A stretch of DNA of 18,172 bases from an uncultured Verrucomicrobiota bacterium (GTDB taxonomy: Bacteria > Verrucomicrobiota > Verrucomicrobiae > Opitutales > Opitutaceae). Under the pieces are notes generated by a model. The model was not told where the DNA came from and searched no databases. It saw nothing but the letters and a program-made list of their open reading frames with translations. Positions 825 through 17,311 of the stretch are shown piece after piece. Position numbers and translations under genes: made by a program. The stretch covers positions 1 through 18,172 of the forward strand of contig CAMLQS010000065.1 in NCBI GenBank assembly GCA_946482165.1. The letters are read 5' to 3'. Position 1 is the stretch's first letter. Every line of letters begins with the position of its first letter.

Positions 825-3092
825 TTAACCATCCGCTTCCGCCTGCTCGATCAACGCCTCCGCTTCGTTGAGCAGGAGTTCGGCGATCACCCAATCAAAC
901 CAGAATCCGCCTTCGGGATCGTTGACGCGAAGGGGGCGGGTGAGCCTCGGTTTGAAGGCAGCGCGGGCTTCCTCCAGGTCTTGTCGGGCGCCTTCCGACT
1001 CTCCGAGCCGCCACCGTGCCATGGCACGGATAAGCCGCACGCTGGCCGAACGGCAAACCGGGCGTTCGCCGGCCGCCAACACCGGGTCGACGAAGAGGTT
1101 CACCTCCCTGTCATGGCCGTCGCGGTGTTTCAAGAGGGCCAGGGTTTGGCAGCGCCAGGACAGGTCCAAGCGGGAGGAAGACCGGGCGTCGTCTAGGGCG
1201 CACGTTTCCGCGAGGCGGGCGAAGGGCCGCAGGATTTCAAGCAACTCGTCCGTCGGTGGCAGCAGCAGGGAACTCTTGAGCACGCGGTCCGCTATCATGG
1301 GATCCGACGTGTCGTGCGCCGACACCGCGACTTGACGGCAGAAGAGTCGATAGCCCTCGAGGTCCCCGCTTTTCACGATCGACACGCCGGCGGCGACCAT
1401 GTCGAGCGAGGCGCTGTCCACGCTTTCGTAGCGGTTGGCACGCAGAAGGGACAGGTAACGTTTTCGCGCCGAGGTCCAGTCGCCGCGTAGAGCGTTCCAT
1501 TCGCCGAGCGTGCGGAGCATGTCCGAGCCTTCGAGAGTGGCGGGTTCGCTGGGGAGGCGCGCGGCCAGCATGTCCGCTTCCGCGAGATCGCCGCCCTGGA
1601 TCGCGGCAGCCACCTGGCGGATGCCTTCGCGCCATTCGGCTTGGCGGCGCAGTTCGCCCTCCACTTTGAGCCCTCGTTCGGCGGCGGCGCGCAAACGGGC
1701 CTGTTCCTTGCGCAATTCGCGTTCGCGCAAGAGCAGCACGGTCGTGACGCCCAATCCCGCCGCCAAGGTCAGGGTGATCGCCGCGCCGGCCGCGAAGGCT
1801 GCGCGGTGCCGGCGGACGAGTTTTCGCAGCCGATAGAGGCGGCTCGGCGGACGCGCCGAAACGAGTTCGTCGCCGAGGTGGCGCCGCACATCCGCGACAA
1901 AGTCGTTGGCCGTCTGGTAACGCCGGTCGCGGTCCTTCTCCAAGGCCTTGGTCGTGATCCAGTCGAGATCGCCGCACAGCCGCGTCGCCAGCCGGGACGG
2001 ATCGCTTTGGCGAAGCCGGGCGATCTCGGAGCGCGCGGCCCCGGGCAGGGCGGCGAACAGCGCCGAGGGCCGGAGCGGCTCCTGGTCCCGCAGCACTCGG
2101 CGCATCTCGTCCACGCCGGCTTCGAGCAGTTTTGCGGTGTCGAAGGGCGTGCGCCCGGTGAGCAGCTCGTGCAGAAGCACGCCGAGGCTGTAGATGTCGC
2201 TTCGCGTATCCACATCCAGGCGGCTTATCTGCGCCTGCTCCGGGCTCATGTAGGCCGGCGTGCCGATGAAGTGCTCGCACGGGGTGAGCAACGTCTCGTC
2301 CGTGAGCTTGCCCTCGACGGCCTTGGCGACGCCGAAGTCGATCACGATGGGCCGCGGCACGCCGTCATGCAGGGCCACGAGGACATTGGAGGGCTTGATG
2401 TCGCGGTGGATGACTCCCTTTTGGTGCGCGTGCTGGACCGCGATGCACACCTGCGAAAAAAGCTCCAGTCGTCGCCGCAGATCGAGCCGGTGCTGATCGC
2501 AAAAGCGGGTGATTTTCGTCCCGCGCACGAGCTCCATGACGAGATAGGGGCGCCCGGTCTCGGTGGCTCCGGCGTCCAGCACCCGCGCGATGTGGGGGTG
2601 GTCCATCATCGCGAGAGCCTGGCGCTCGATGTTGAATCGGGCGACGAATGCCTCCGTATCCATGCCGAGCTTGATGATTTTGAGCGCGACCTGCCTGCGG
2701 ATCGGATGTTCCTGCTCCGCCAGATACACGACGCCGCAACCGCCTTGGCCCAAGACTTCGATCAGCCGGTAGGAACCGATTTTCGTGCCCGCGGGCGGAG
2801 CGGAGGCGCGGTCCAACGCGGCGGATTGCCACACGGCCGGATCCTCGGCGAGCGCGAGGCAATCGTCGGCGGTCAGCGAGAAGGCCGCGTCGCTTTCGGC
2901 GAACAAGCCCCCGGCCTTTTCGTGAGCAGCCAGCAGCCGTTCCACGCGGTTTCGCATCCCGGAATCGCCCGCGCAGGCGTCGTCGAGGAATGCACGCCGC
3001 GCCTCCGGCTCCTCGTGTTCGAGCGCGCCGCAGAAAAGTTCCTCGGCCCTGGCGGTGCGGAGAGGATCACGATCCATGGGGGTATTGTTCAC
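825..3092 (-). CDS. Membrane-spanning serine/threonine protein kinase with C-terminal helical region
   Basis: This is a 755-residue Hanks-type kinase. Residues 15-65 match the helical N terminus common in Planctomycetes/Verrucomicrobia kinases (EELF..ALE... ERLLAAHEKAGG). The catalytic domain spans about 108-405: glycine loop GQGGCGVVYLAE (115-126), lysine 138 in VALK, Glu157, catalytic HRDIKPSN (229-236), DFG (252-254) and GTPAYMSPEQ (278-287). All key residues are present, so it should be active. One hydrophobic segment (about 432-456) predicts a cytoplasmic kinase and an extracytoplasmic C terminus of about 300 residues. That part is charged and helical, possibly TPR-like (LGEWNALRGDWTSARKRYL), and could be the sensor. 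The outermost start is GTG at 3092; ATG at 3077 (residue 6) is at least as likely. The ECF sigma-factor gene ends 39 bases upstream on the same strand, suggesting kinase control of that sigma factor. Confidence 0.93.
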   Translation of the reverse strand: MNNTPMDRDPLRTARAEELFCGALEHEEPEARRAFLDDACAGDSGMRNRVERLLAAHEKAGGLFAESDAAFSLTADDCLALAEDPAVWQSAALDRASAPPAGTKIGSYRLIEVLGQGGCGVVYLAEQEHPIRRQVALKIIKLGMDTEAFVARFNIERQALAMMDHPHIARVLDAGATETGRPYLVMELVRGTKITRFCDQHRLDLRRRLELFSQVCIAVQHAHQKGVIHRDIKPSNVLVALHDGVPRPIVIDFGVAKAVEGKLTDETLLTPCEHFIGTPAYMSPEQAQISRLDVDTRSDIYSLGVLLHELLTGRTPFDTAKLLEAGVDEMRRVLRDQEPLRPSALFAALPGAARSEIARLRQSDPSRLATRLCGDLDWITTKALEKDRDRRYQTANDFVADVRRHLGDELVSARPPSRLYRLRKLVRRHRAAFAAGAAITLTLAAGLGVTTVLLLRERELRKEQARLRAAAERGLKVEGELRRQAEWREGIRQVAAAIQGGDLAEADMLAARLPSEPATLEGSDMLRTLGEWNALRGDWTSARKRYLSLLRANRYESVDSASLDMVAAGVSIVKSGDLEGYRLFCRQVAVSAHDTSDPMIADRVLKSSLLLPPTDELLEILRPFARLAETCALDDARSSSRLDLSWRCQTLALLKHRDGHDREVNLFVDPVLAAGERPVCRSASVRLIRAMARWRLGESEGARQDLEEARAAFKPRLTRPLRVNDPEGGFWFDWVIAELLLNEAEALIEQAEADG

Positions 3093-3131
3093 TGCATGCG
3101 CGTTGAGACGCGGTTCTACGACACGGCCGGT

Positions 3132-3701
3132 TCAGGTTTCTTTCTGCAGCCGGAGAAACAGCCAAGTTCTGGCGCAGAGCCAGTGTCGGTTTACGGTGCG
3201 CTCCGAGATACCTAGGCTTTCCGCGACTTGGTTATTGGTCAGGCCCCCGAAGAATTTCATCACCACCACGCGTCCGCGCTCGGGATTTTCGATTTCCAAC
3301 GCGTTCAACGCCTCGTGGATGAGGAGCAGTTTCTCGTCTGGCGCGGCTTTGGCCAAGTTGAGCTCGTCGAGCTCGACGCGCTGCTGCGCACCGCCGCCGC
3401 GTTTCAACCGAGACCGCTGGCGCGCCTTGTCGATCAAGATGCGGCGCATCGCCTGGGACGCCGCGCCGAAAAAATGGGCCCGGTTTTGCCAGGCCGGGCC
3501 TGCTTGGTCGCCGGGGCCGGAAAGCCGCAGCCAAGCCTCATGAACCAACGCGGTGGCCTGCAGCGTATGGCCGGCCGCTTCTCGCGCCATGCGTGAGGCG
3601 GCCATTCGACGCAACTCGTCGTATACGAGCGGCAGGAGCTTCGCGGAAGCGTGGGCGTCTCCGCGGCCTATCTCTTGCAGCACCAAGGTCAGGTCGCTCA
3701 T
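3132..3701 (-). CDS. ECF-type RNA polymerase sigma factor (PF07638 / TIGR02999-like)
   Basis: This is a 189-residue sigma-70 family protein with regions 2 and 4 only. Region 2 (about 5-97) has the hallmark text of the Sigma70_ECF family: LPLVYDELRRMAASRM, HTLQATALVHEAWLRL and NRAHFFGAASQAMRRILIDKAR. Region 4 (about 122-182) contains the helix-turn-helix LTNNQVAESLGISERTVNRHW. I chose ATG at 3701 because the family begins about there (MSDLTLVLQEIGRGD). The frame extends to 4022, but the extra 107 residues look like random coding and would overlap the divergent gene. No anti-sigma gene is nearby; instead a Ser/Thr kinase follows. Sigma factors of this class in Planctomycetes, Acidobacteria and Verrucomicrobia are often paired with such kinases, and one such pair in Vibrio is known to be controlled by threonine phosphorylation. 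Its targets are unknown. Confidence 0.93.
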   Translation of the reverse strand: MSDLTLVLQEIGRGDAHASAKLLPLVYDELRRMAASRMAREAAGHTLQATALVHEAWLRLSGPGDQAGPAWQNRAHFFGAASQAMRRILIDKARQRSRLKRGGGAQQRVELDELNLAKAAPDEKLLLIHEALNALEIENPERGRVVVMKFFGGLTNNQVAESLGISERTVNRHWLCARTWLFLRLQKET

Positions 3702-3879
3702 GGCCCGAAAAGCAAACCGCCCCGACCCTCGATGCGCGAGCGGACAATGAGATTGCCCCGGAAAACCAGGGGACGCGCATCCGCGGCTGCCTCCCGCCGG
3801 TCCGAACCCCGCCGCGAATAGTGACGAAGCCGTTACCTTATTCGAACCGCGTCCGCTCTCAGGATCGGCCAAGACCGGG
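3702..3879. promoter_or_regulatory. Divergent intergenic region with likely promoters for the sigma factor and the redox operon
   Basis: These 178 bases separate the sigma-factor start (minus) from the DUF3570 start (plus), so promoters for both units should lie here. I see no canonical sigma-70 -35/-10 pair. Two similar decamers in direct orientation, tccgaacccc (3801-3810) and ttcgaaccgc (3841-3850), match at 8 of 10 positions and lie exactly 40 bases apart. GAACC-like boxes are typical of ECF -35 elements, but I do not find a matching -10 at the right distance. An AT-richer segment (3830-3847) lies between them. A weak hairpin (cccc/gggg, 3756-3772) is also present. The regulatory role is inferred from position. 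Confidence 0.4.
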
Positions 3880-5085
3880 ATGCGCAATCCCCGTCGCCTC
3901 ATGCTCGCCTCCGCTTCTTCCCGCCACGTCGGTTCAGTTCGCATCCCCTGCGGCCTGTTGTCGGCCTCCGTGCTGTCGCTTCTGGCCGCGCGGAGCCACG
4001 CCGAGTCGTCGGTCACGTTCAAAAATCAGTCCTGGCAGGAGGACGACGAACGCATCCGCGTGGACGCCCAATACGCCCTGCTCGACGCGGAGCTAAGCCC
4101 CGACGCCCGCCTGAAGGTCATGGGCCTGATCGACACGATCGCGGGCGCCACCCCGACGGGCGAGAAGGCCGCTCCCGGCGCGCCTCCGCCCACCTCGGAA
4201 ATGGAGGACGAGCGCAAGGCGTGGAACGCCGACTTCGCCTATCAGTTTCCGCGCGTGAACGTTTCGATCGGCCACGGCGTCAGCCGCGAGAGCGACTACG
4301 TCTCGCACGGTTACGCGCTCAACACGCTCACCGACTTTAACCAGAAAAACACCCTCCTGCGCGTCGGCTGGGGGCATACCGACGACCGCCTCATGCAGAA
4401 GTTCTGGTCGGAGGACCGCGAGAAGACCGGCGACGATTTTCTCCTCGGCGTCACCCAGCTCCTTTCGCCCGCCTTCGCCCTCACCGTCAACCTGGGCTAC
4501 GGCCGCGCCGAGGGCTTCCTCAGCGATCCCTACAAGATCGTCTCGACCACCCGCCTCGCCCTCGATCCCGGCACCTATTACACGCCGCCCGAGAACCGCC
4601 CGCGCGAAAAGGACAAGGCGAGTCTGTTCGTCGGCGCCAACCGGCACTTCGAGCGACTCGACGCCGCCCTCGACGCATCGTATCGATTTTATCACGACAG
4701 CTTCGGAGTCGACAGCCACACCGTGGAGCTGAAGTGGCTCCAGCGGGCCGGCGCGCATCTCCTCGTCGAGCCCTCGATCCGCTACTATCGGCAAAGCGCG
4801 GCGGACTTTTATCACTACGACCTAGATGCGGCCGGCGTCGTCACCAACTACGATCCGCTCTTCGAGACCGGCACCGGCGAGGGGCCGTATTACTCGTCCG
4901 ACCACCGCCTCTCCGAGATGGAAACGATCACCCTCGGCTTGAAGGTCTCCTGGATTTTCAACGCCCACTGCTCGGTCGACGTTTCCCTCGAGCGCTACCT
5001 CATGCAGGGGCTCGACGATGTCACGCCATCGGGCGTCTACAGCGACGCCAACATCATCACCTTCGGCCTGAAGCTCAGCCGCTGA
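3880..5085 (+). CDS. DUF3570 outer-membrane beta-barrel protein, candidate ApbE substrate
   Basis: This is a 401-residue protein that I assign to DUF3570 (PF12094) from its sequence and neighbours. A signal peptide (hydrophobic core 25-37, likely cleavage after Ala41 in RSHA|ES) precedes an N-terminal part containing YALLDAELSP and GLIDTIAGATPTGE (82-95). The rest alternates polar and aromatic residues as in an outer-membrane barrel (for example FAYQFPRVNVSIGHGVS, LFVGANRHFERLDAALDASYRFYHD) and ends in the strand NIITFGLKLSR. The heptad DTIAGAT (85-91) resembles the flavin-attachment motif of ApbE targets. DUF3570 genes commonly sit with apbE, a TlpA-like thioredoxin and DUF4266, exactly as here; the molecular role is unknown. 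The start is ATG 3880; ATG 3901 is possible. It is the first gene of the operon, and apbE starts 33 bases downstream in the same frame. Confidence 0.88.
   Translation: MRNPRRLMLASASSRHVGSVRIPCGLLSASVLSLLAARSHAESSVTFKNQSWQEDDERIRVDAQYALLDAELSPDARLKVMGLIDTIAGATPTGEKAAPGAPPPTSEMEDERKAWNADFAYQFPRVNVSIGHGVSRESDYVSHGYALNTLTDFNQKNTLLRVGWGHTDDRLMQKFWSEDREKTGDDFLLGVTQLLSPAFALTVNLGYGRAEGFLSDPYKIVSTTRLALDPGTYYTPPENRPREKDKASLFVGANRHFERLDAALDASYRFYHDSFGVDSHTVELKWLQRAGAHLLVEPSIRYYRQSAADFYHYDLDAAGVVTNYDPLFETGTGEGPYYSSDHRLSEMETITLGLKVSWIFNAHCSVDVSLERYLMQGLDDVTPSGVYSDANIITFGLKLSR
4132..4152 (+). other. Candidate flavinylation motif DTIAGAT in DUF3570 (Thr91)
   Basis: These codons encode residues 85-91, Asp-Thr-Ile-Ala-Gly-Ala-Thr, followed by Pro-Thr-Gly. 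ApbE enzymes attach FMN to the last threonine of motifs of the type D-x-x-[S/T/A]-[G/A]-A-T. The motif lies about 44 residues after the predicted signal cleavage site, so it would be extracytoplasmic and cannot itself be a signal-peptidase site. Modification is inferred. Confidence 0.5.
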
Positions 5086-5118
5086 TCCGCCGCCCCGGCA
5101 TTCCGCCCGCTCCTCGTC

Positions 5119-6114
5119 ATGTGCGCCCTCTTGTCCGTCGCGCCTGTCCGTTCCGCCGCCGCCGCTTCCCCGCCCGCGAACGCGCCGTGCGCGGTGCGTC
5201 GCCACCGCTGGACGGCGTTGGGCACGACCTGCGAGATCCAGTTCGTCTGCGAAGATGACGGCCTCGCGCGCCGCTTCGAAACCGAGGCGGTCGCCTGGGT
5301 CGCGACCTTCGAGGCGCGTTACTCCCGTTTCCGCCCCGACAGCCTTGTCGGCCGCATCAACGCCGCCGCCGGCCGCGAATGGGTGGCGGTGGACGAGGAG
5401 ATGGACGGCTTTCTCGATTTCTGCGGATCCCTCCACTTCCTCACCCAGGGCGCGCTCGACGCGACCGCCACGCCGGTGATGCGCCTCTGGGATTACAAGG
5501 CCGCGGTGCCACGCGTCCCCGCCGACGCCGAGATCGCCGCCGCCCTTCGCCTCGTCGGTTGGGGAAAAGTGCAACGCGAGCCCGGTCGCGTGCGCCTGCC
5601 CGAGCCCGGGATGGCCATCGACTTCGGCGGCTGGGGCAAGGAATACGCGGTCGACGCCGTCGCCGCGCTCGCCCGCTCCCTTGGGATCGCCCGCGCCTTG
5701 GTCGACTTCGGCCACGATCTTTTCGCCGTCGGCGCCGCTCCCGGAAAACCCGGCTGGCACATCGGCCTTGAAGATCCGGCCAACCCCGCCGGCCCGTGCC
5801 GCGGCAGCCTGGCCGCCGCCGACATCGGCGTCGCGAGCTCGGGAGACTACCTCCGAGGTTTCACCGTCGGCGGAAAGCGCTACGGTCACATCGTCGATCC
5901 GCGCACCGGCCGCCCTGTGTGCAACGGCTGCCGCCAAGTCACCGTCGTCGCGCCCACCTGCCTCCAGGCCGGCGCGCTCTCGACCGCGATTTTCATCCTG
6001 GGGCCCGACGCCGGTCTCGCCCTCGCCGGCCAGATCATGGGCGTCGAGGCCCGCGTCGTCGCAGATCGCGCCGTCCACCAGACCCGCGGCTTTTTTCGTT
6101 ATGTCGTTTCCTGA
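5119..6114 (+). CDS. apbE: FAD:protein FMN transferase (ApbE family)
   Basis: This is a 331-residue ApbE-family protein. The enzyme splits FAD and links FMN by a phosphoester bond to a threonine of extracytoplasmic redox proteins. Family landmarks occur in order: ALGTTCEIQF (33-42), RYSRFRPDSLVGRIN (66-80), ALDATATPVMRLWDY (112-126), IDFGGWGKEYAVDAV, the glycine turn FGHDL, and SSGDYLRGF...HIVDPRTGRPV. The glycine-rich segment reads GKEYAVD rather than the common GKGYAVD. In the final motif AGALSTAIF the usual Asp (ADALxT), a metal ligand in studied ApbE proteins, is Gly285; Thr289 is kept. The start at 5119 gives a hydrophobic leader (MCALLSVAPVRSAAAA) without a basic n-region, and the same frame is open from the DUF3570 stop, so the true N terminus is uncertain. 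It overlaps the TlpA-like gene by 14 bases. Confidence 0.92.
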   Translation: MCALLSVAPVRSAAAASPPANAPCAVRRHRWTALGTTCEIQFVCEDDGLARRFETEAVAWVATFEARYSRFRPDSLVGRINAAAGREWVAVDEEMDGFLDFCGSLHFLTQGALDATATPVMRLWDYKAAVPRVPADAEIAAALRLVGWGKVQREPGRVRLPEPGMAIDFGGWGKEYAVDAVAALARSLGIARALVDFGHDLFAVGAAPGKPGWHIGLEDPANPAGPCRGSLAAADIGVASSGDYLRGFTVGGKRYGHIVDPRTGRPVCNGCRQVTVVAPTCLQAGALSTAIFILGPDAGLALAGQIMGVEARVVADRAVHQTRGFFRYVVS

Positions 6115-6628
6115 TCCCCTGTGCTTCGTCCGTCGCGCCGCCGTTTTGCTCCTCGGCGCGTCGATGCTCTTCACCGTCGCCCCGGCCGCTCGCGCGGAGG
6201 TCAAGGTTGGCGAGCCGTTTCCCGACCTCTCCGCCCACGCGCTCGAGGGGGCGCTTCCGCCCCGCGCCGGGCGGGTCGTCCTGGTGGACTTCTGGGCCAC
6301 CTGGTGCGCCCCGTGCAAAGCCTCCTTCCCCGCCTACGACGCGCTCCACACCGAGTTCGCCGCGCGCGGCTTCACCGTCATCGGCGTCAGCGTGGACAAA
6401 AAGGCCGCGCCCTACGCCGAGTTCATCAAACGTTTCGCCCCCGCCTTCCCGACCGTGCGCGATGGCGAACAAAAGCTCGTCGCCGCGGTGCGTCCGCCCG
6501 CCATGCCCACCTGCTACCTGCTGGATCGCAAGGGCGTGCTCCGTCTCGTCCACCGCGGTTTTCACGGCGACGCCGACGCCGCGCTGCTTCGCGCCGAAAT
6601 CCTGAAACTCCTCGACGAACAACCATGA
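6101..6628 (+). CDS. TlpA/ResA-like periplasmic thioredoxin
   Basis: This is a 175-residue exported thioredoxin-fold protein. A signal peptide (RR at 11-12, core AAVLLLGASMLFTVA) probably ends after ARA at residue 32. The TlpA pattern follows: VGEPFPDLSAHALEG, VVLVDFWATWCAPCK with the redox pair Cys69/Cys72, FTVIGVSVDKK, and the cis-proline region PPAMPTCYLLDRKGVL. Such proteins usually reduce extracytoplasmic disulfides using electrons from a DsbD/CcdA-type membrane partner, and a DsbD-like gene closes this operon. The likely client here is another operon product, for example the CxC lipoprotein encoded next; that is inference. An extra cysteine lies just after the cis-proline. ATG 6101 lies inside the end of apbE, and the stop overlaps the next start in ATGA, so translational coupling is likely. 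Confidence 0.93.
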   Translation: MSFPDPLCFVRRAAVLLLGASMLFTVAPAARAEVKVGEPFPDLSAHALEGALPPRAGRVVLVDFWATWCAPCKASFPAYDALHTEFAARGFTVIGVSVDKKAAPYAEFIKRFAPAFPTVRDGEQKLVAAVRPPAMPTCYLLDRKGVLRLVHRGFHGDADAALLRAEILKLLDEQP

Positions 6629-6861
6629 ACTCCCGCGCCCTCCGCGTCCCCGCCCTCCTGGTCTTCTGCGCGCTGGCCGGCGGCTGCTCCTCCGTCCGGC
6701 TCACCCGTGTGCAGCCGTGGGAACGCGCCGCCCTCGCCGATTACACGATGCAGCCCGAGCGCGATCCGCTCCAGGCCGCCATGAGCGAGCACATCTATTT
6801 TTCGCGCGAGGCCTCCTCCGGCGGCCGAGGCGTCGGCGGCAGCGGCTGCGGCTGCAACTGA
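6625..6861 (+). CDS. DUF4266 small lipoprotein with C-terminal CxC tail
   Basis: This 78-residue protein matches the DUF4266 (PF14086) pattern: RVQPWERAALADYTMQPERDP, then HIYFSREASSGG and a glycine-rich tail ending GCGCN. The N terminus MNSRALRVPALLVFCALAGG followed by Cys21 is a lipoprotein signal peptide with an LAGGC lipobox, so the mature protein should be a lipid-anchored peptide of about 58 residues. Two cysteines (75 and 77) sit almost at the C terminus after a flexible Gly/Ser linker, which suggests a redox-active or metal-binding CxC reachable by the neighbouring TlpA-like thioredoxin. The family has no known function. ATG 6625 overlaps the TlpA-like stop by four bases (ATGA). The next gene starts 14 bases downstream. 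Confidence 0.9.
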   Translation: MNSRALRVPALLVFCALAGGCSSVRLTRVQPWERAALADYTMQPERDPLQAAMSEHIYFSREASSGGRGVGGSGCGCN

Positions 6862-6875
6862 GGTTTCCATCCCCG

Positions 6876-8348
6876 ATGTATCTTCACACCCTGCTTTACC
6901 GGTTCCGCTGGCTGCACGCGCCTTCCGTGCTGCTCCTGCTCCTCCTGCAACGCATGCCCGTGCTGCGCGTGCTCGCCGGCGCCTCGCCCGGCTTCGGGCT
7001 CCAGTCCGGAGACCTGTTGAAATCCGCCTTCGCCCTAGCCGCCCTCGGCGCGGTCGACACCGTCGCGGGCGCCACCACCTTCAACGCCACCGTCGTCTCG
7101 CCCACGACCGTCACGCCGACCAGCGGCGGCCCGGGAGCCACATTCAACGCGAGCGGCAACGCCAACGCCGCCTTCAGCGTCGCGTTCAATGTCACCGGCG
7201 CCCCGGCCACCGCAAAATCCTGGAAAGTCACCGGCACCTTCCCGCCCGGCCTCACCGTCGCGGGCGGCACCGCGGTGGCCGGCGGGTTTCGGGTCAACGC
7301 GCTCAAAGTCACCATCTCCGGCAGGCCCACCGCCGCCGCCGTCCAGTCCCTTACCGTCACCGCCTACGATTCGCTCAACACGCCCTCCACCGCCAACCAG
7401 GCCAGCGTCACCTGCCGCATAACCGTCGTCGGCGCCAACGCCCCTCCGTCCTTCACCACCCATCCCGGATCGCAGGCCGTCACCTCCGGCGGCAACGTCA
7501 CCTTCACCGCCGCCGTCACCGGCACGCCGACTCCGACGCTCCAGTGGTTCAAGGGCACCACGTCGCTCCCGGGAAAAACCACGGCCACGCTCGCGCTCAC
7601 CGGTGTCACCGTCGCCGACGCGGGCGATTACAAGCTCGTCGCGACCAACTCATCCGCGCCCGCCGGCGTCTCGTCCAACGTCGCCACGCTCACGGTCAAC
7701 ACCGCGCCGGCCATCACCAGCGCAGCGTCCGCTCTGTTCCAGGCGCTTCAAACCGGCCAGACCTTCACCGTGACCGCGACGGGGAATCCGGCGCCGACCT
7801 TTTCCGCCACCGGTCTTCCCGCCTGGGCCGTGCTCGATCCCGCCACCGGTGTCATCAGCGGCACTCCCGCCACCGCCCAGGCCGGCACGACAACGGTCAC
7901 GCTGACCGCGAGCAACGGCGTCGCGCCCGCCGCCAACCAGACCTTTTCGCTCTTGGTGAAAACCGCCGTGCGCCTCTGGCAGGAGGCCGGCTTCACCGCC
8001 GCAGAGCTCGCCGCTCCCGACGTTTCGGGCAACGCCGCCGTCCTCGCGCCCGACGGTCTGCCCAATCTGCTCCACTACGCGCTCGGCTACGGCCCGCGCG
8101 AGACCGTTCCCTCCTCCGCTCTCGCGTTCTCTAGGATCGGCGACGACTTGGCCCTTGTCTACGCCCGGCCGAGCACCCGGTTCGGCGTCGTTTACCACGT
8201 CGAAAGCTCCACGGACCTCATCACCTGGAGCACCACCGGCGTCACACACCAGTTGGTCTCCTCCTCGGGCGGCGTCGACACCTGGCGCGGCTCCGTGCCC
8301 GCCGGAGCGCCTCGGGTGTTTCTGCGCTTGAAGGTCGCCGAACAATAA
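6876..8348 (+). CDS. Ig-like secreted/anchored protein with DTVAGAT module (paralogue 1)
   Basis: This is a 490-residue protein. Residues 1-67 form an unusual N-terminal module: RWLHAP, a hydrophobic stretch (about 16-34, ending QRMPVLR), a short loop, a second hydrophobic stretch LLKSAFALAALGAV, then DTVAGAT (61-67). It could be an extended signal sequence, a membrane anchor, or a flavinylation site. Next come a putative-Ig (He_PIG-like) domain (about 71-185), an Ig-like domain (about 190-275, TLQWFKG...DAGDYKLVATN), a second He_PIG-like domain (about 278-362, AVLDPATGVISGTP), and a C-terminal module common in verrucomicrobial secreted proteins (DGLPNLLHYALGYGP, VYHVESSTDLITWS). No catalytic residues stand out. 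I chose ATG 6876 because it lies just after the DUF4266 stop; the frame is open to 6717 but that part overlaps the lipoprotein gene. Confidence 0.82.
   Translation: MYLHTLLYRFRWLHAPSVLLLLLLQRMPVLRVLAGASPGFGLQSGDLLKSAFALAALGAVDTVAGATTFNATVVSPTTVTPTSGGPGATFNASGNANAAFSVAFNVTGAPATAKSWKVTGTFPPGLTVAGGTAVAGGFRVNALKVTISGRPTAAAVQSLTVTAYDSLNTPSTANQASVTCRITVVGANAPPSFTTHPGSQAVTSGGNVTFTAAVTGTPTPTLQWFKGTTSLPGKTTATLALTGVTVADAGDYKLVATNSSAPAGVSSNVATLTVNTAPAITSAASALFQALQTGQTFTVTATGNPAPTFSATGLPAWAVLDPATGVISGTPATAQAGTTTVTLTASNGVAPAANQTFSLLVKTAVRLWQEAGFTAAELAAPDVSGNAAVLAPDGLPNLLHYALGYGPRETVPSSALAFSRIGDDLALVYARPSTRFGVVYHVESSTDLITWSTTGVTHQLVSSSGGVDTWRGSVPAGAPRVFLRLKVAEQ
7016..7075 (+). repeat. 60-base direct repeat, copy 1 (module end incl. 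DTVAGAT)
   Basis: This stretch matches 8550-8609 at 59 of 60 positions; the one difference is a/c near the middle (ccctagcc against ccctcgcc). It encodes the second hydrophobic segment and nearly all of the DTVAGAT heptad of paralogue 1. Third-codon positions match as well, unlike the more diverged flanks. Confidence 0.9.
7056..7076 (+). other. Candidate flavinylation motif DTVAGAT in Ig-like protein 1 (Thr67)
   Basis: The codons encode residues 61-67, Asp-Thr-Val-Ala-Gly-Ala-Thr, followed by Thr. The heptad is the same in paralogue 2 and differs from the DUF3570 copy only by Val for Ile. An alternative reading is that AGA is a signal-peptidase AxA site with cleavage just before Thr67; the sequence alone cannot decide. 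Confidence 0.45.
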
Positions 8349-8355
8349 GCCGCTC

Positions 8356-8380
8356 CGGTCGCTTCATCGGGGCGCGACCG
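8356..8380 (+). other. GC-rich hairpin just after Ig-like gene 1
   Basis: A perfect 7-base inverted repeat, cggtcgc (8356-8362) and gcgaccg (8374-8380), encloses an 11-base loop. It begins eight bases after the stop codon in the 61-base gap, the largest within the operon. There is no following T-run, so it is not a standard intrinsic terminator. It might reduce read-through or protect the upstream mRNA. Confidence 0.4.
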
Positions 8381-8409
8381 CTTCGTCCAAATTCGGATCC
8401 GTCGTCGTC

Positions 8410-10914
8410 ATGAATTTCTCGATACTGTTCCAGCGTCTCCGCTGGCTGCACGCGCCCGCGTTCCTGCTCGTGCTGCTTCTGCAACGCGCGCCCGTGCTGC
8501 GCCTGTTCGCCGGCGCCTCGCCCGACTTCGGCCTCCGGGCCGGCGACTTGTTGAAATCCGCCTTCGCCCTCGCCGCCCTCGGCGCGGTCGACACCGTCGC
8601 GGGCGCCACGAGTTTCAACTCGATTCCGGTTGCTCCGACCATCGCCAATCCGGACTCCACCGGCGTCGGCGGGACCTTCACCGTCTCGAGTCCGGTAGAC
8701 GAATCCTTCGGCCTCTCTTTCACCGTCTCGGGTTCTCCCGCCCCGGTTCGTTCCTGGAAGGTCTCCGGCGGCCTGCCTCCCGGCGTCGGCGTCACCGGCG
8801 GTTCCGTCACCGCGTCGGGCATCGTCGCAAACGGCCTCAAGCTCACGCTCGACGGCAACCCCAACGTCCCCGGTTCATACACGCTCACGGTCGGCGCCTA
8901 CGAAAATCTCAACGCCGGCGGACGCAGCGCCAGCGTCATCTGCCGCGTCACGATCAGCGGAGTCTCTTTGCCCGCCGCGCCGGTCTTCGCCACCGAGCCC
9001 GCATCCCGGACCGTCGCCGCCGGCTCCAACGTCACCTTCACCGCCGTCGTCGCCGGTTCTCCCGCGCCGACTCTGCAATGGTTCAAGGACGACGAGCCGC
9101 TGCCGGGCAAGACCGCCGCCACGCTGACCTTGGTCGCCGTCCAGCCCGCAGCCGCGGGCGGCTACCGCCTCGTCGCCACCAACGATTCCGCCCCCGGAGG
9201 CGTGTCGTCCGCGACCGCGACGCTCACGGTCAACCACGCCCCGATCATCGCCTCCTCGCCGCCCGCCGCGCTCACCGCCGGGCTCGGGGACACCGTCACG
9301 CTCTCCGTCGCCGCCACCGCGCAACCCTCCGCTTCCTACCAATGGCGCAAGGGCGCGGCCGCTCTGCCCGACCAGACCGGTCCCGACCTGACGCTGGGTC
9401 CGATCACCTTCGCGGACGACGGCACCTACTCGGTCGTCGTGTCCAACGCCGTCGGCTCGCGCACTCTTTCCACGCGGCTCTCCGTGATCGTGCCGCCGCC
9501 CGCCGATCTGGTCGACCCGGGCACGCTCAAGACCGGTTCCTCCGTCCGCTTCGATCTCGGCGGCGGCCGGCCGGTGCCGGAGGGGCTCGTCTACAAAGCG
9601 AAGGGTTTGCCCGCCGGTCTCACGCTCGATCCCGCCACCGGAATCATCACAGGCGTCATCAAGGCCCGCCCCGGCGCCGCCAAAGTCCTCACCTACGCCC
9701 AGGCCGGCGCGCTCAAGAGCGTGACCAAAACCGCCACGCTCCTCATCGGCGCCTTCCCGGCCTCGCTCGTCGGAAAATACGAGGCGCTGCTCGACGCCGC
9801 GGGCGAGACGCCGCTGCCCGCCGGCAAGCTCAGCCTTGCCGTTGCCGCCAACGGCGCCGTCACCGGCACGCTCCTCGCCGACGGCCTCGCGGGTCTGCCG
9901 GTGCGAGGTGGGCTCGTTCTGGCCGAAAGCCAGACCTCCGCCGCCGCCACGCTTTCCGTCGCCCGCGCCAAGCCGCTTCCGCCCTATACCCTCGTCCTCT
10001 CGGTTCATGACAACGCTCCCGCGCTCGCCGCCACGCTCTCGCTCGGAGCCGACATCCTTGGCGCCGCCACCGAAGGAGCCCGCCTTCTCGGCGCCGCGCC
10101 GGCCGGAGCGGTCGGCCCGCACACACTCCTGCTTTCCGCGCCGACCAACCTCGGTTCCGTCGCCGAGTTCCCTCTCGGCTTCGGCCACGCCACCGCGACG
10201 CTCAACGCGAAGGGCGTGCTCACGCTTTCGGGCAAGCACGCCGACGGCGCGAGATTCACCGCCTCGCTGCCTCTCGGCGCCGACCGCGTGGCCCGGCTTT
10301 ATTCCAAGCCCTATGCGCTCGTCGGCGGCTACCTCGCCGGGCCGCTGCCCTTCACGCCGCGCGCCGACAACCCCGATCGCTGGCGCGTCACCGCGTCCGC
10401 AGGTTCCGAACTCTACTGGCGCAAGCCCGACCCCGTCGCCGCCACGGCCAACTACGCCGACGGCTTTGGCCCTCTCGCGCTCACCGCCCGCATCGAGCCT
10501 TGGACAAAACCTGCCGCCGCCGCGCCGCTGCCTCCGCTCCTCGGGCTGCCTCCCTCCGGCGACCTCGCCCTGGAAATTGCCGCCACCGGCGTGGCCAACA
10601 CCGAAGACGGTCCCCACGGCCTGCCCGTCGCGCTGCATTTCGACCCGATAAAAAACCTCTTCGCCGTCGTCGGCGCCAACCCCGCGGTCTTCACCGCGAA
10701 ACTCGCCCCCGCCACCGGCGCGCTTGGCGGCGGGTTCATTCTGAAAACCATCCCGCCTCTTGCCCCGCGAAAAGTGACCTTCGCCGGCGTGGCCATCCAA
10801 CACGCACCCGACGACGGGCCCGGCCCCGTCGCCGGCGGTTTTTTCCTTCTCCCCGCTGCAGCCGCGGGCGGCCCCGTCTTCTCCGGTCGGGTCGTCCTCT
10901 CCGTCGCTCCCTGA
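8410..10914 (+). CDS. Large Ig-like secreted/anchored protein with DTVAGAT module (paralogue 2)
   Basis: This 834-residue protein begins with the same 67-residue module as its neighbour (RWLHAPAFLLVLLLQRAPVL, then LLKSAFALAALGAV and DTVAGAT at 61-67). It continues with a He_PIG-like domain (about 71-185), an Ig-like domain (192-275, TLQWFKDDEPLPGK), a second Ig-like domain (278-362, SYQWRKGAAALP...DDGTYSVVVSNAVG) and another He_PIG-like unit (366-447, GLTLDPATGIITG). From about 450 to the end lies a long beta-rich region starting VGKYEALLDAAGE, of a type I associate with verrucomicrobial surface proteins; its ending GGPVFSGRVVLSVAP is typical. There are few cysteines and no recognisable catalytic site. 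It is probably an extracytoplasmic structural or carrier protein. ATG 8410 is the only well-placed start. The gene ends 14 bases before the DsbD-like gene. Confidence 0.82.
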   Translation: MNFSILFQRLRWLHAPAFLLVLLLQRAPVLRLFAGASPDFGLRAGDLLKSAFALAALGAVDTVAGATSFNSIPVAPTIANPDSTGVGGTFTVSSPVDESFGLSFTVSGSPAPVRSWKVSGGLPPGVGVTGGSVTASGIVANGLKLTLDGNPNVPGSYTLTVGAYENLNAGGRSASVICRVTISGVSLPAAPVFATEPASRTVAAGSNVTFTAVVAGSPAPTLQWFKDDEPLPGKTAATLTLVAVQPAAAGGYRLVATNDSAPGGVSSATATLTVNHAPIIASSPPAALTAGLGDTVTLSVAATAQPSASYQWRKGAAALPDQTGPDLTLGPITFADDGTYSVVVSNAVGSRTLSTRLSVIVPPPADLVDPGTLKTGSSVRFDLGGGRPVPEGLVYKAKGLPAGLTLDPATGIITGVIKARPGAAKVLTYAQAGALKSVTKTATLLIGAFPASLVGKYEALLDAAGETPLPAGKLSLAVAANGAVTGTLLADGLAGLPVRGGLVLAESQTSAAATLSVARAKPLPPYTLVLSVHDNAPALAATLSLGADILGAATEGARLLGAAPAGAVGPHTLLLSAPTNLGSVAEFPLGFGHATATLNAKGVLTLSGKHADGARFTASLPLGADRVARLYSKPYALVGGYLAGPLPFTPRADNPDRWRVTASAGSELYWRKPDPVAATANYADGFGPLALTARIEPWTKPAAAAPLPPLLGLPPSGDLALEIAATGVANTEDGPHGLPVALHFDPIKNLFAVVGANPAVFTAKLAPATGALGGGFILKTIPPLAPRKVTFAGVAIQHAPDDGPGPVAGGFFLLPAAAAGGPVFSGRVVLSVAP
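8550..8609 (+). repeat. 60-base direct repeat, copy 2 (module end incl. DTVAGAT)
   Basis: This is the partner of 7016-7075 with one mismatch in 60 bases, encoding the same residues of the N-terminal module of paralogue 2. It points to tandem duplication of the Ig-like gene with later divergence, or to gene conversion holding this part constant. Confidence 0.9.
8590..8610 (+). other. Candidate flavinylation motif DTVAGAT in Ig-like protein 2 (Thr67)
   Basis: The codons encode residues 61-67, Asp-Thr-Val-Ala-Gly-Ala-Thr, followed by Ser-Phe-Asn. It matches paralogue 1 in sequence and residue number. Flavin attachment at Thr67 is inferred from similarity to ApbE target motifs and from apbE in the same operon. 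Confidence 0.45.
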
Positions 10915-10928
10915 AGTTTTCCGCGCCC

Positions 10929-13007
10929 ATGCTCGTCCGTCCCTTTCGCTTGCTCCTGCTCCTCGCCCTCTGCGCGCTCCCCGTTGCCTTGCGCGCGCAG
11001 GTGAAAGCCTCGCTTGTCGCGCTCAAGTCCACATTCCCCGCCTCCGCGTCCGAGGTTGTCGTGGGCCTCCGGCTGGAGCACGAGCCGCACTGGCACACCT
11101 ACTGGCTTCAGCCCGGCACCGGGCTGCCCACCAGCCTCGCCTGGCAACTCCCCCCCGGCTGGAGCGCCGGTCCGATCCGCTGGCCCGCACCCCATCGCGT
11201 CTACGACACCGCGGGCAATCTCGCCGGCAACGGCTACGACGGGGTCGTCACCCTGCCTGTCACGCTTACTCCGCCGCGCGACCTCGCATCCGGCGTGCCT
11301 GTCACGCTGCGCGCCAAGGCCGAGTGGCTCATGTGCAAGGACGTCTGCATCCCCGGCTCCGCCGACTTGAGCATCAGCCTCATGCCCACGGCCCCCGGGG
11401 CGATCACTCCGGCCAACGTCACCGACTCCGCCGAAGGCGAAGCGCTCCTCGCCACGCTCGAATCGCTGCCAAAGCCGCTCCCCGCCGAGCTCGTGGTGAA
11501 GCTCACGCGGACCGACCCTGCCGCGAAGCTCGTTCAATTTAAGGTCTCAGGTCTCCGCCCTCAGCCTTCGGGCGAGCCTTGGTATTTCGACGCCGACGCC
11601 GCCATTGCCTACGACCGGCCTCAGATGCTCGTGTCCGGTTCGTCCGTCGGCCGGCTCGTCATCGACCTTCCGGTCTCCGACTACGCCGAGCCTTTCCCCG
11701 CGCGTCTCCGCGGCTTGCTCACCTTCGCCGGCGGCCCCGCCTACGAGCTCGATCTTCCCATCGCGCCCGCGACCGCCGCGTCCGCCGCCCCGGCGAACTC
11801 CGCCCCATCCCTGGGCGGCATTCTCGCCTTGGCGTTCGTCGGCGGGCTCATCCTGAACCTCATGCCCTGCGTCTTCCCCGTGCTCGGACTGAAGGTCATG
11901 GGCTTCGTGCAACAGTCCGGACATGATCGCAAAAAGATCACCGCGCACGGTCTCGTGTTCACCGGCGGCGTGTTGCTCTCGTTCTGGTTGCTCGCCGGCG
12001 TGCTCGCCGTTCTCCGCGCCGGCGGCTCGCAGCTTGGCTGGGGATTCCAGCTCCAGGAGCCGGCCTTCGTCTTTGCGATGGCCGCGGTCCTCCTCGCCTT
12101 CGCGCTCAACATGTCGGGCGTATTTGAGTTCGCCCTCCGCGCCACCGCCGTCGGCGGCTCGCTCCAGCAAAAGCAGGGCTACGCCGGCTCCTTCTTCACC
12201 GGCGTGCTCGCCACCGTCGTCGCCACCCCGTGCAGCGCGCCCTTCCTCGCCCCCGCCCTCGGCGCCGCGCTCGCCCTCCCGGTCGCCGCGAGCTTCGCCG
12301 TCTTCACCGCCGTCGGCTTCGGCCTCGCCACGCCCTACCTCGCGCTCGCCGCGTTCCCCGCCGCGGTCCGGGCCCTGCCGCGACCCGGCGCCTGGATGGA
12401 GACCTTCAAGCAAGGCATGGCCTTTCTCCTCTACGCCACCGTCGCGCTGATGATCTGGATTCTCGCCGGGCAGGTTTCCCCCGAGGCGCTCCTCTCCGCG
12501 CTTCTCGCGCTCTCCGGTCTCGCGTTCGGGCTCTGGATCTACGGCCGGGCCACCGCGCCCGGGGCGAGAAAACCCCGCCGCGTCGCCCTTGCGCTCTCGC
12601 TCCTCTCCATCGTCGGCGCGCTCTTTGCCGGCTGGCCGCGCGCCGCCGCGCCCGGCGAGATCGTTTGGGAGCCGTGGAGCGCCGAGCGCGTCGCCGAGCT
12701 CCGGAAAGAAGGCCGCCCCATCTACGTCGATTTCACCGCCCGCTGGTGCTTCACCTGCCAGACCAACAAGAAGGCCGTCTTCCACGGCCCCGGCTCCGGC
12801 GAGGTTTTGAAGACCTTCCGTGACAGAAAGGTCGCCGCCCTCCGCGCCGACTGGACCAACCGCGATCCGAAGATCACCGCCGAGCTCGCCCGCTGGAAAC
12901 GCGCCGCCGTGCCGTTCAACCTCGTCTACCTGCCCGCGTCGCCCGAACCCGCGCTCCTCCCCGAATTGCTCACGCCGTCTGTCGTGCTCGGGGAGCTGGT
13001 TCGCTAA
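10929..13007 (+). CDS. dsbD: DsbD/ScsB-like thiol:disulfide interchange transporter
   Basis: This 692-residue protein carries reducing power from the cytoplasm across the inner membrane. Order of parts: signal peptide (1-23, ALRA|Q); a periplasmic alpha-type domain with the redox motif EWLMCKDVCIPG (Cys136/Cys140); a CcdA-like membrane domain (about 295-570) with the paired cysteines in LMPCVFPVLG (Cys314) and VATPCSAPF (Cys435); and a C-terminal thioredoxin-like domain with DFTARWCFTCQTNK (Cys607/Cys610) and cis-proline VPFNLVY (Pro662). All six expected cysteines are present, so it looks functional. The alpha domain resembles ScsB-type proteins more than E. coli DsbD. It starts 14 bases after the second Ig-like gene and is the natural electron source for the TlpA-like protein. 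Its stop lies four bases from the end of the convergent RND gene, with no room for a terminator. Confidence 0.94.
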   Translation: MLVRPFRLLLLLALCALPVALRAQVKASLVALKSTFPASASEVVVGLRLEHEPHWHTYWLQPGTGLPTSLAWQLPPGWSAGPIRWPAPHRVYDTAGNLAGNGYDGVVTLPVTLTPPRDLASGVPVTLRAKAEWLMCKDVCIPGSADLSISLMPTAPGAITPANVTDSAEGEALLATLESLPKPLPAELVVKLTRTDPAAKLVQFKVSGLRPQPSGEPWYFDADAAIAYDRPQMLVSGSSVGRLVIDLPVSDYAEPFPARLRGLLTFAGGPAYELDLPIAPATAASAAPANSAPSLGGILALAFVGGLILNLMPCVFPVLGLKVMGFVQQSGHDRKKITAHGLVFTGGVLLSFWLLAGVLAVLRAGGSQLGWGFQLQEPAFVFAMAAVLLAFALNMSGVFEFALRATAVGGSLQQKQGYAGSFFTGVLATVVATPCSAPFLAPALGAALALPVAASFAVFTAVGFGLATPYLALAAFPAAVRALPRPGAWMETFKQGMAFLLYATVALMIWILAGQVSPEALLSALLALSGLAFGLWIYGRATAPGARKPRRVALALSLLSIVGALFAGWPRAAAPGEIVWEPWSAERVAELRKEGRPIYVDFTARWCFTCQTNKKAVFHGPGSGEVLKTFRDRKVAALRADWTNRDPKITAELARWKRAAVPFNLVYLPASPEPALLPELLTPSVVLGELVR

Positions 13008-13011
13008 GCAC

Positions 13012-16000
13012 TCAGGCCGGAGCGATCTCGTGGCGTCCGTGGTCGCCGGGTTTCTTCACTTTGAACCAGATCGCGTAGAGGGCGGGAAGGAACAGGAGCG
13101 TGAGCACCGTGCCTGCGCCGACGCCGCCGATAAGCACGTAAGCCAGGGCGCCCCAGAACGACGAATGGGTGAGGGGAATAAAGGCCAGCATCGCGGCGAC
13201 GGCCGTAAGCACCACCGGGCGGGCGCGCCGCACCGTGGATTCGATGATCGCCTCGTAGTCGGAAAGACCGGCCGCCTTGTCGCGCTGGATCTGGTCGACC
13301 AGGATCAGCGTATTGCGAATCAGGATACCCGAGAGACCGATGAGCCCGAGGATCGCGTTGAATCCGAAAGGCTGGTTGAAAAGAATCAAGGTCGGCACGG
13401 CGCCCACCAATCCCAGGGGACCGGTGGCGAATACCATGAACATGGCCGAAAACGAGCGGACCTGAAACATGATCAACGCCAGCGTCGAGATGATCATCAC
13501 GGGGAAGAGCAGCGCGAGGGCCTTGTTGGCTTTCGCGCTTTCTTCGACGGAGCCGCCCGTGTCGATCCGGTAGCCGTCGGGCAGACCGGCCTTGATCGCC
13601 GCGAGTTGGGGCAAAATCTCGGCCGTGACGTCCGGCGGCTGGACTCCCTCGACCACGTCGCCTTGGACGGCGATGTAGAGCTCCCGATCATAACGCTTCA
13701 ACACGGCGTCTTCCATCCGCGTCTCGATTCGGGCGATCTGCCGGAGCGGAAACGAGCGCCCCTGATCGTTGCGAACGATCAAATCCCCGATCGCGTCGAG
13801 GCCGTCCCGCTCAAGCTTCGGACTTCTGACCTGGACGTCGACGGTGCGGTCTCCGCTCCGCACCTGGGACACGGTTGCGCCCTGGAGTATCGCCTGGAGC
13901 TGGAGCGCCGCATCCTGCGGATTGAGTCCGACCAGGTGCAGGCGCGCCTCGTCAAAGGCCAGATGCAGCACGGGTGTCTTTTCGCCCCAGTCCAGATGCG
14001 CGTCTCGGAGCCGCGGGTTTTTCTCCATGACCAGCCGGACATCATTCGCGATCCGACGGATTTCATTCAGATCGCCGCCGGTCACCCGGAAAAGGACGGG
14101 ATAAGGCACCGGCGGCCCGAACAGAAACTGCGTCACGCGCACGCGCGCCTCGGGGAAGCGTCCCTCCGCCACCAAATCGCGGATTTTGGTTTTCAACGCG
14201 TCTCGCTCGCGGGGGTTCGCCGTTCGAATGACCACTTGGGCAAAGGCGGGGTTGGGCAGCTCGGAATTGAGCGAAAAGAAAAAGCGCGGCGCGCCTTGCC
14301 CGATGTAGCTCGTGACCTGCTTCGCTTCGGGCAAGGCCAGCATGGCTTGCTCGATGCGATGAACCGTCTTCTCGGTCGCGGAGAACGCGGACCCGGCGGG
14401 AAGATTGATCTCGAGCGTCAGCTCCACGCGGTCCGAGTTGGGGAAGAACTGCTTCTTCACCAGCGCCATCCCCAGAACGGACAGAACAAACAACCCCGCG
14501 GTGCCTCCCAGCGTCAGCCATTTGCGATCCACGCACGTGCGGATCAGGCGGCGGAAGCGCTCGTAGTTTTTCGTGTCGTAGATCGAATGGTGGTCGTCCG
14601 CTTTCCTCGGGATGTCCGGCAGAAGCTTCACGCCCATGTAAGGCGTGAAAAATACGGCCACGAACCAGGATACGATGAGCGAAAAGGCGACGATCCAGAA
14701 AATGTTTCCGGCGTATTCGCCGGCGGTGGAACGAGCGAATCCCACCGGCAGGAAGCCGACGATCGTCACCAAGGTCCCGGTGAGCATGGGCGCCGCCGTC
14801 GAAGTCCAGGCGTAGCCCGCCGCCTTCACGCGATCCCAGCCTTCCTCCATTTTCACGACCATGGTCTCGATCGCGATGATCGCGTCGTCCACCAGCAGTC
14901 CGAGGGAGAGAATGAGGGCGCCCAAGGTGATGCGGTCGAAGTCCCGGCCGGTCACGAGCATGATCAGGAACACGGCGGCGAGCGTGAGCGGAACGGCCGC
15001 GGCCACGACGACGCCGACGCGAAAGCCGAGGGTCAGCAGGCTGACGAGAATCACCACTCCCAGCGCGGTGAAGAACTTCACCATGAATTCCCCGATCGAC
15101 TCCTTGATGACCGCGGCTTGGTCGGAAATCTGCGTGAGCGAGATGCCTGCGGGGAGCTCCGCCTGGAGGCGACGCACTTCAGCCGCGAGGTCTTCGCCGA
15201 GGGTGAGGCCGTTGTAGCGTTTGTGCATCACCACGCCCAGGACCAGCGCGGGCTCGCCGCCGTTGCGGATCAAGTAGCCGGGCGGATCTTCGTAACCTTT
15301 TCTGACTTCGGCCACGTCTCCGACGGTCAACGTCTTGCCGGGGACCGAAAGAGGGATTGATCGGACCGATTCGAGATCCGTGATCGCGCCGTCGACCCGA
15401 AGATAGACGCGAGGTCCGGCGGTTTCGACGAAACCGGACGGCGTGACGTCGTTATGGCGCGCGATGGCGCCGAACAAGGACTGGGCGCCCAGGCCCAGCG
15501 TCGCGAGTCGTTGATACGAGACTTCGACGAAGATCTTTTGGTCCGGCTCGCCCAGGATCTTCACCTTTTGGACGCCCGGCACACGAGTCAGCCGCTGCCG
15601 AAGTCGTTCCGCGTCTTGCGCCAGGTCGCGGTGCGGAAGATCGGCGGCCTTGAGCGCGTAGAGGGAGAAATAGACGTCGGTGTATTCGTCATTGAATACG
15701 GGACCGAGCACGCCGCGGGGCAGGAGACGCGCCTCGTCGCCGAGTTTTTTTCGGACCTGGTAAAACTCCGCGGGCACCTCGTCGGGCGGCGTGTTGTCCT
15801 TCAGGTAGACCTTCATCGTCATCAGCCCGGGACGCGAGGTGGTCTCCGCGCGATCATAGTGCTCGAGTTCCTGAAGGCGTTTTTCGAGTCGGTCCGCGAC
15901 CTGGTTTTGCATCTCCTCCGCGGTGGCACCCGGCCAGATGGCGGTCACGGTCATGATCTTCACCACGAAGGTCGGGTCCTCGGCGCGCCCGAGCTTGCCG

Positions 16001-17273: not shown

Positions 17274-17311
17274 GGCGGCGATTTTTTTGAAGGTGCTTCC
17301 GGCGCTTCCGT

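Follow-up and report, generated by a model that had tools for sequence, protein, structure and literature searches.

Ig-like proteins encoded in a DsbD-type flavinylation operon of Opitutaceae are a candidate new class of ApbE substrate

ApbE-bound flavins provide a widespread route for electrons outside the cytosol, and an operon from an uncultured Opitutaceae bacterium raises the question of which proteins an ApbE homologue modifies. The DNA analysed, here called the window, is the whole stretch of 18,172 nucleotides that makes up positions 1 to 18,172 of contig CAMLQS010000065.1 (GenBank assembly GCA_946482165.1). A first-pass annotation had proposed that three proteins of this operon, a DUF3570 protein and two Ig-like proteins (Ig1 and Ig2), are substrates of the ApbE encoded between them, based on a heptad that all three share. 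The features concerned are as follows.

3880..5085, + strand: DUF3570 protein, 401 aa, predicted outer-membrane beta-barrel (PF12094, E=3e-69)
4132..4152, + strand: DTIAGAT, predicted FMN site Thr91 of DUF3570 (family flavinylation in PMC8238504, excerpts)
5119..6114, + strand: ApbE, FAD:protein FMN transferase homologue (PF02424, E=6e-71)
6101..6628, + strand: TlpA/ResA-like thioredoxin, WCAPC
6625..6861, + strand: DUF4266, small secreted protein with CxC at its end (PF14086, E=1e-22)
6876..8348, + strand: Ig1, 490 aa, N-terminal membrane domain followed by the motif and Ig-like domains
6876..7055, + strand: Ig1 N-terminal domain up to the motif, with LLQRxP segment, Arg/Lys loop, and K49 followed by 11 uncharged residues
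7056..7076, + strand: DTVAGAT of Ig1 (Asp61-Thr67), candidate FMN site
8410..10914, + strand: Ig2, 834 aa, N-terminal domain as in Ig1, Ig-like domains, different C-terminal part
8590..8610, + strand: DTVAGAT of Ig2 (Asp61-Thr67), candidate FMN site
10929..13007, + strand: DsbD-type transmembrane thiol reductase that ends in a thioredoxin domain (PF11412, PF02683, PF13899)

The seven genes all lie on the + strand in the order DUF3570-ApbE-TlpA-DUF4266-Ig1-Ig2-DsbD, with gaps of at most 61 bases. ApbE, DUF3570, a thioredoxin-like protein, DUF4266 and DsbD are thus encoded in one gene run, and these are the members of the DsbD gene clusters described in the consulted text of Meheust et al. 2021 (PMC8238504). 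The window operon is this published "DsbD" flavinylation cluster with two Ig genes added, and its DsbD protein is the likely electron donor. Most of the relatives with a name, for both the Ig and the DUF3570 proteins, come from Opitutaceae and other Opitutae, which points to that group as the most likely origin of the window. By eye, genes for a serine/threonine kinase and for a sigma-factor-like protein lie divergently upstream of the operon (window 825-4022, - strand) and may regulate it, while genes for an RND-type efflux pump and a membrane-fusion protein (13012-17315, - strand) are convergent to DsbD.

The heptads were where the annotation had placed them, namely DTIAGAT in DUF3570 (residues D85-T91) and DTVAGAT in both Ig-like proteins (D61-T67 in each), all in frame. 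A search of the window for GAYACNRTNGCNGGNGCNAC that allowed up to 2 mismatches returned exactly three sites, each with 0 mismatches (4132-4151, 7056-7075 and 8590-8609, + strand), while 200 shuffles gave a mean of 0.20 sites and a maximum of 2, so that 3 was never reached. The annotation had also correctly counted 19 of 21 identical bases between the DUF3570 and Ig1 heptads; Ig1 and Ig2 agree at 20 of 21. The DNA likeness between DUF3570 and Ig carries little weight, because the proteins of DUF3570 relatives read DSIAGAT, DAIAGAT and similar, and the likeness between the Ig1 and Ig2 motifs follows from an N-terminal domain common to both (72% identity over 76 aa). We rejected the possibility that the DNA repeat has a role of its own, as the residues around the acceptor differ among relatives. 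As a separate observation, the DNA of Ig1 and Ig2 is identical at 58/60 bases up to and including the motif (7017-7076 versus 8551-8610), compared with 52/60 just upstream and only 32/60 just downstream, which could reflect either gene conversion or strong constraint.

For the DUF3570 protein, modification by ApbE would be no novelty. The available part of Meheust et al. 2021 (PMC8238504) reports that C. luteolum DUF3570 receives its flavin from ApbE at [S/T]GA[S/T] motifs, so this third of the finding was already known for the family. The window protein belongs to this class by its match to PF12094 (E=3e-69) together with DTIAGAT. In an alignment of 121 DUF3570 sequences, consisting of the window protein and 120 listed among 1042 matches, D85, I87, G89 and T91 are invariant, residue 90 is A in 117, N in 3 and V in 1, and a single [S/T/A]GA[S/T] motif is found in 116 sequences and none in 5. 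Position 4 of the motif is A in 109 of these 121, T in 8, S in 3 and V in 1; the Ala form is therefore the usual one in the aligned set, and not the mild departure that the annotation had taken it for. Elsewhere in the order, position 4 of the DUF3570 motif is commonly S or T, and one group carries DTITG[S/T]TP. The AlphaFold2 model of the window protein is a barrel (mean pLDDT 91, 16 strands by manual count) in which DTIAGAT lies inside strand 76-92, adjoining loop 93-104, and Foldseek matched the model mainly to outer-membrane barrels, including FepA, FadL and OmpG. Outer-membrane barrels usually have both ends in the periplasm, and by this topology loop 93-104 would lie outside.

The novelty therefore rests with the Ig-like proteins. 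In Pfam and NCBIfam, the annotation's remark that they lack a recognisable FMN-binding domain is borne out: Ig1 and Ig2 gave no match to the FMN-bind, NqrB/RnfD, DUF2271, DUF3570, Flavodoxin_4 or FMN_red profiles of these collections, Pfam found only Ig-type and related beta-sandwich domains, NCBIfam found nothing, and Foldseek with the Ig1 model returned Ig-domain proteins. A search with Ig1 residues 1-90 yielded 15 proteins, and in the window Ig pair and 14 of these relatives (the near-identical P0005 was left out of alignment A1) the GAT is invariant, the Asp position is occupied by D, N or H, and A or T stands at position 4. A contig scan that confirmed at least two loci served as the entry to a search of 372 genomes of the order. 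Profile A3 (8 rows) detected the Ig N-terminal domain in 53/372 genomes, and profile A4, built from 38 diverse N-termini out of 39 selected, each ending before the motif, which was thereby masked (L064, with an odd start, was omitted), gave 90 matches in the same 53/372. In many genomes part of the first-look candidates were scored, so absences in these counts are not absolute. A sample of 133 genomes from the phylum, which overlaps the order sample, had matches in 4 genomes, all found previously.

Although the motif was hidden from A4, the pattern [H/N/D/Q][S/T/A]x[A/S/T/V][G/A]A[T/S], read from the fetched DNA, directly follows 88 of the 90 matches, a figure to be taken with the shared ancestry of the genomes and the motif-bearing membership of A4 in mind. 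The remaining two are one RAISGAS and one decayed copy with stops; all 89 intact matches therefore keep a final Thr or Ser and the A of GA. Among the 88 heptads, position 1 is H in 39, N in 29, D in 15 and Q in 5; position 2 is S in 40, T in 31 and A in 17; position 4 is A in 53, T in 17, S in 13 and V in 5; position 5 is G in 85 and A in 3; position 6 is A in all 88; and position 7 is T in 77 and S in 11. Compared with the ApbE site D-x-x-[S/T]-G-A-[S/T], the last three positions fit in nearly all, while Asp is present in 15/88 and position 4 is mostly Ala; the window heptads have the Asp but Ala at position 4. The decayed copy of the N-terminal domain, with in-frame stop codons, lies at G050:C46:27857-27991 (L242). 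In two genomes with Ig genes away from DUF3570 (L058 and L065), these genes form adjacent pairs near what look by eye like genes for enolase, HemJ and a TonB-dependent receptor.

The rarity of Asp, 15/88 Ig motifs compared with 121/121 DUF3570 sequences (the window's and 120 listed of 1042), counts against the Ig proteins being substrates. The annotation had suggested asking whether the Asp and GAT positions are invariant only in genomes with this ApbE, and had named homologues beside apbE without the Thr or Asp as evidence against its proposal. Asp proved variable, in contrast to the final T/S and the A of GA, which were kept, and at L001, for example, a protein with YNSVAGAT adjoins apbE. 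The consulted part of a review (PMC12052999) calls the Asp strictly conserved in known ApbE motifs and, citing Bertsova 2019, describes only minor effects on flavinylation when it is changed to Ala; because that change mattered so little, we consider the Asp criterion too strict. Of the three proposed substrates, DUF3570 thus stands at the level of its family (PMC8238504, in the part consulted), while the proposal for the Ig proteins is plausible, and has more behind it than the annotation could draw on, in an altered form in which the Asp is not conserved.

The position of the heptad relative to the membrane bears on what it may be. The last charged residue before it is Lys or Arg in 94/94 Ig frames, 11-12 uncharged residues separate this charge from the motif in 80/88 distinct Ig cases, and the loop before is positive, while the 20 residues after the motif are slightly negative. 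This charge pattern fits Ig domains that lie outside and a motif at the outer face of the membrane, whether the protein is cut or uncut. In the AlphaFold2 model of Ig1, low-confidence helices span residues 3-24, 28-34 and 44-57, strands begin at 68, and the heptad (61-67) lies outside a helix. Residues 3-65 have pLDDT <50 and the model is uninformative on an FMN pocket, which we counted against the Ig proteins being substrates.

The same geometry would suit an extended signal peptide, cut by signal peptidase I at VAGA|T, an alternative that the annotation had raised; in that case the likeness to an ApbE site would be coincidental and the first 66 residues, and with them the heptad except for its last residue, would be absent from the mature protein. 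By the (-3,-1) rule, signal peptidase I cuts where these two positions hold small residues, and the Ig proteins have them after a hydrophobic stretch (A at -1 in 88/88, A/S/T/V at -3), so cleavage before the Thr is possible; the succession of Lys/Arg, 11-12 uncharged residues and a polar stretch is likewise typical of signal peptides. Cleavage leaves unexplained the G at -2 (85/88), the restriction to T/S at +1 (88/88) and the H/N/D/Q at -6 (required by the regex, which missed one intact match with R among the 90), as well as the co-variation and the almost one-to-one occurrence with DUF3570 (74/76 genomes) described below. TlpA proteins from these loci have signal-peptide sites that vary at -2 and +1 (17 parsed among 60 frames). 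We nevertheless rejected conservation at -2 and +1 as proof against a signal peptide, since in DUF3570 relatives these positions are conserved in an ordinary signal peptide as well (R in 17/21 and E in 20/21, with 21 of 87 frames parsed by a regex that itself restricted +1). Overall, this is the strongest of the rival readings, but we judge it unlikely that the domain is a signal peptide of this kind.

The heptad could instead be a structural or sorting element of surface Ig proteins, acting in helix packing or as a dedicated export or anchoring signal, with no flavin involved and with secretion of these proteins dependent on the same operon. The LLQRxP segment is also conserved, and the Ig C-terminal parts are highly variable, as in surface proteins. 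It is harder to see from a structural or sorting role why a hydroxyl residue and the A are kept across subfamilies with little else in common, why the heptad departs from the ApbE consensus only at the first residue, or why it co-varies with DUF3570, a true ApbE target. We consider such a role improbable.

If the Ig proteins are modified by the same system as DUF3570, the genomic company of the two becomes relevant. Among the 372 genomes of the order, DUF3570 was found over the cut-off in 76 (77 at E 0.001), DUF4266 in 72 and ApbE in 251. All 53 genomes with the Ig N-terminal domain fall within the 76 with DUF3570 (hypergeometric 2e-46, with kinship ignored). The other 23 DUF3570 genomes were covered by a heptad scan of the fetched clusters followed by a closer look, and with a pattern that includes the heptad, H[A/S/G][L/M/I][S/T]GA[T/S] (mostly HALSGAT), 20 of them yielded 21 more diverged proteins, 19 of which are on the strand of DUF3570 within its locus. 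Their heptad is mostly ~80 residues into the open frame, with a hydrophobic stretch, sometimes LLQRxP, and by eye the next segment resembles a putative Ig domain. The last charge is Lys/Arg in 20/21 of them, with a spacing of 12 or 15 rather than 11-12, which we counted against the Ig proteins being substrates. As a further observation by eye, most of the diverged Ig-type proteins at L179-L203 (~285 aa) end in an aromatic-rich part with GWLY-like repeats. In total, 74/76 DUF3570 genomes have a heptad-bearing Ig-type protein, among them G292 with HVLTGAT; in the other two, G187 and G224, the cluster lies at the end of its contig.

We also examined position independently of the motif: for each DUF4266, the longest frame that follows it on the same strand was chosen without regard to the heptad; 9 further cases had no such frame. 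The heptad occurs in the first 230 aa of 55/73 of these frames compared with 5/1167 gene-like frames outside the DUF3570 and Ig-type groups, a background from which the 102 Ig-type frames, all with the heptad and some recognised by it, are excluded. The heptad is therefore found after DUF4266 more often than by chance. The 18/73 frames that lack the motif were inspected by eye: G292 has HVLTGAT, in G047 the rule took another gene, in G204 another frame, and in the remaining cases the Ig genes are elsewhere or are separated from DUF4266 by other genes. Of 94 Ig frames (three genes counted twice because of overlapping loci, whereas the 90 A4 matches are counted once each), 52 share a fetched locus with DUF3570 and 50 with ApbE, and the rest lie at contig ends or in other parts of the genome. 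All 53 Ig genomes have ApbE, as do 251/372 overall, and G002, G166, G262 and G302 have one ApbE match each, which is the cluster's own. For 42/94 Ig frames the fetched locus has no DUF3570, which counts against the Ig proteins being substrates. Taken together, the Ig-like proteins are probably a constant partner of DUF3570 in the order, an association that is new.

With the commonest state in the genome used when the partner lay outside the locus, residue 4 is the same in the DUF3570 and Ig motifs at 59/80 tips (A-A 26, S-S 23, T-T 7, V-V 3) and differs at 21/80 (T-A 9, S-A 5, S-T 3, A-V 2, A-S 1, T-S 1). When evolution was simulated on the DUF3570 tree, agreement this high arose in 0/4000 simulations of the Ig trait and 1/4000 of the DUF3570 trait, and mutual information as high in 3/4000 and 8/4000, respectively. 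With same-locus pairs only, shuffles that ignore kinship matched the agreement in 140/20000. In three genomes with two clusters each (G198, G204 and G351), both proteins of one cluster have V (DAIVGAT) and both of the other have A, although this V-V pairing is probably one event. No such V pair was seen in G282, G317 or G367, which have two DUF3570 genes, and V in the Ig motif is also paired with A in DUF3570 (G317, G323). Residue 4 of the Ig motif thus co-varies with that of DUF3570 beyond the phylogenetic null. Since parsimony places few changes at this residue (7 for Ig and 15 for DUF3570), the co-variation is support, short of proof.

The enzyme itself is unusual. The window ApbE matches PF02424 (E=6e-71) and keeps the Ser (in SSGDY) and His (in YGHIVDP) of the catalytic triad, but the Asp is replaced by Gly in AGALST (5968-5985, + strand). 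In an alignment to the solved ApbEs 5mgy, 6nxi and 7esa, these have Asp where the window protein has Gly; in the numbering of the review (PMC12052999, in the part consulted), the triad is Asp285, Ser241 and His257. Gly replaces Asp in 81/81 aligned cluster ApbE frames, all of which keep the His, the Ser and the Thr of AGALST (three genes occur twice because of overlapping loci, and two partial frames were omitted). The incomplete Ser/His/Asp triad counts against the Ig proteins being substrates, and from its sequence we class the window protein as a homologue of ApbE whose triad is altered rather than as a proven transferase. We met no mention of an Asp-less ApbE in the portions of the ApbE literature consulted for the other questions. 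The uniform replacement could mean that the cluster enzyme attaches a group other than FMN or modifies only one of the two protein types. Against such an altered activity, the ApbE of the C. luteolum DUF3570 cluster does flavinylate according to the consulted text of PMC8238504, whatever its residue at the Asp position may be, and we regard an altered activity as highly improbable.

Taken together, we favour with moderate confidence the interpretation that the Ig-like proteins are a new, previously undescribed class of ApbE substrate, and their flavinylation at a heptad with a relaxed first residue is a likely, and new, prediction. In the mechanism we propose, the seven genes form one electron-transfer operon. 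The DsbD and TlpA-like proteins would carry electrons out to the periplasm, and Thr91 of DUF3570, the barrel in the outer membrane, would receive FMN from ApbE, a step shown for the family and extended here to the window protein. The Ig N-terminal domain, with its LLQRxP, Lys/Arg and 11-12 uncharged residues, would set [H/N/D/Q]-[S/T/A]-x-[A/S/T/V]-G-A-[T/S] on the inner membrane's outer face, and there ApbE may esterify the last Thr/Ser of the heptad with FMN. More speculatively, electrons could cross the periplasm between flavin on Ig rods at the inner membrane and flavin in the DUF3570 barrel.

The full combination, in which the Ig proteins form a new ApbE substrate class with a ~65-residue N-terminal membrane domain and FMN on Thr/Ser at the inner membrane's outer surface, the heptad Asp is relaxed to His/Asn, the enzymes are a distinct Asp-less ApbE subfamily, and the Ig proteins are the constant inner-membrane partner of DUF3570 across the order, has in our estimate an even chance of being correct as a whole. 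If true, a relaxed heptad would be the sole mark by which this substrate class can be recognised, and the recognition rule would extend beyond Asp. It would also hint at how DUF3570 systems bridge the inner and outer membranes and would offer a natural Asp-less ApbE for the study of mechanism.

How does this system compare with those already described? Our literature search, largely without subscription papers, found no paper that describes Ig-like proteins as ApbE substrates, and the word immunoglobulin is absent from the main text of PMC8238504, the one paper in that search to name DUF3570 or DUF4266. The consulted part of that 2021 survey counts 670 genomes (4%) with apbE but without a known substrate. 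Relative to its DsbD cluster, as given there, the window has all five gene types in one gene run and differs in the two Ig-like genes between DUF4266 and DsbD. Its DUF3570 protein and relatives belong to the same Pfam family as those of PMC8238504, with the D, G and T of the motif invariant; going by the text consulted, they differ in that position 4 is mostly Ala rather than Ser/Thr and in that one motif is present in 116/121 (the window's and 120 listed of 1042) where two are conserved in the published set.

Other ApbE substrates named in the consulted portion of PMC11334425 are FMN-bind, NqrB/RnfD, DUF2271, Flavodoxin_4 and FMN_red. The Ig proteins resemble these in having a [S/T]GA[S/T]-like site and in often adjoining apbE, and NqrB/RnfD is membrane-embedded, as the Ig N-terminal domain is predicted to be. 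Unlike them, Ig1 and Ig2 match none of those families, and their site ends a single hydrophobic segment that precedes the Ig domains. A comparison in another respect is offered by the trypanosomatid fumarate reductase (PMC8065229, in the part consulted): its motif, like that of the Ig proteins, is short and N-terminal, with the acceptor, a Ser, near the protein start, whereas that motif carries the Asp and is joined to the ApbE domain in one protein.
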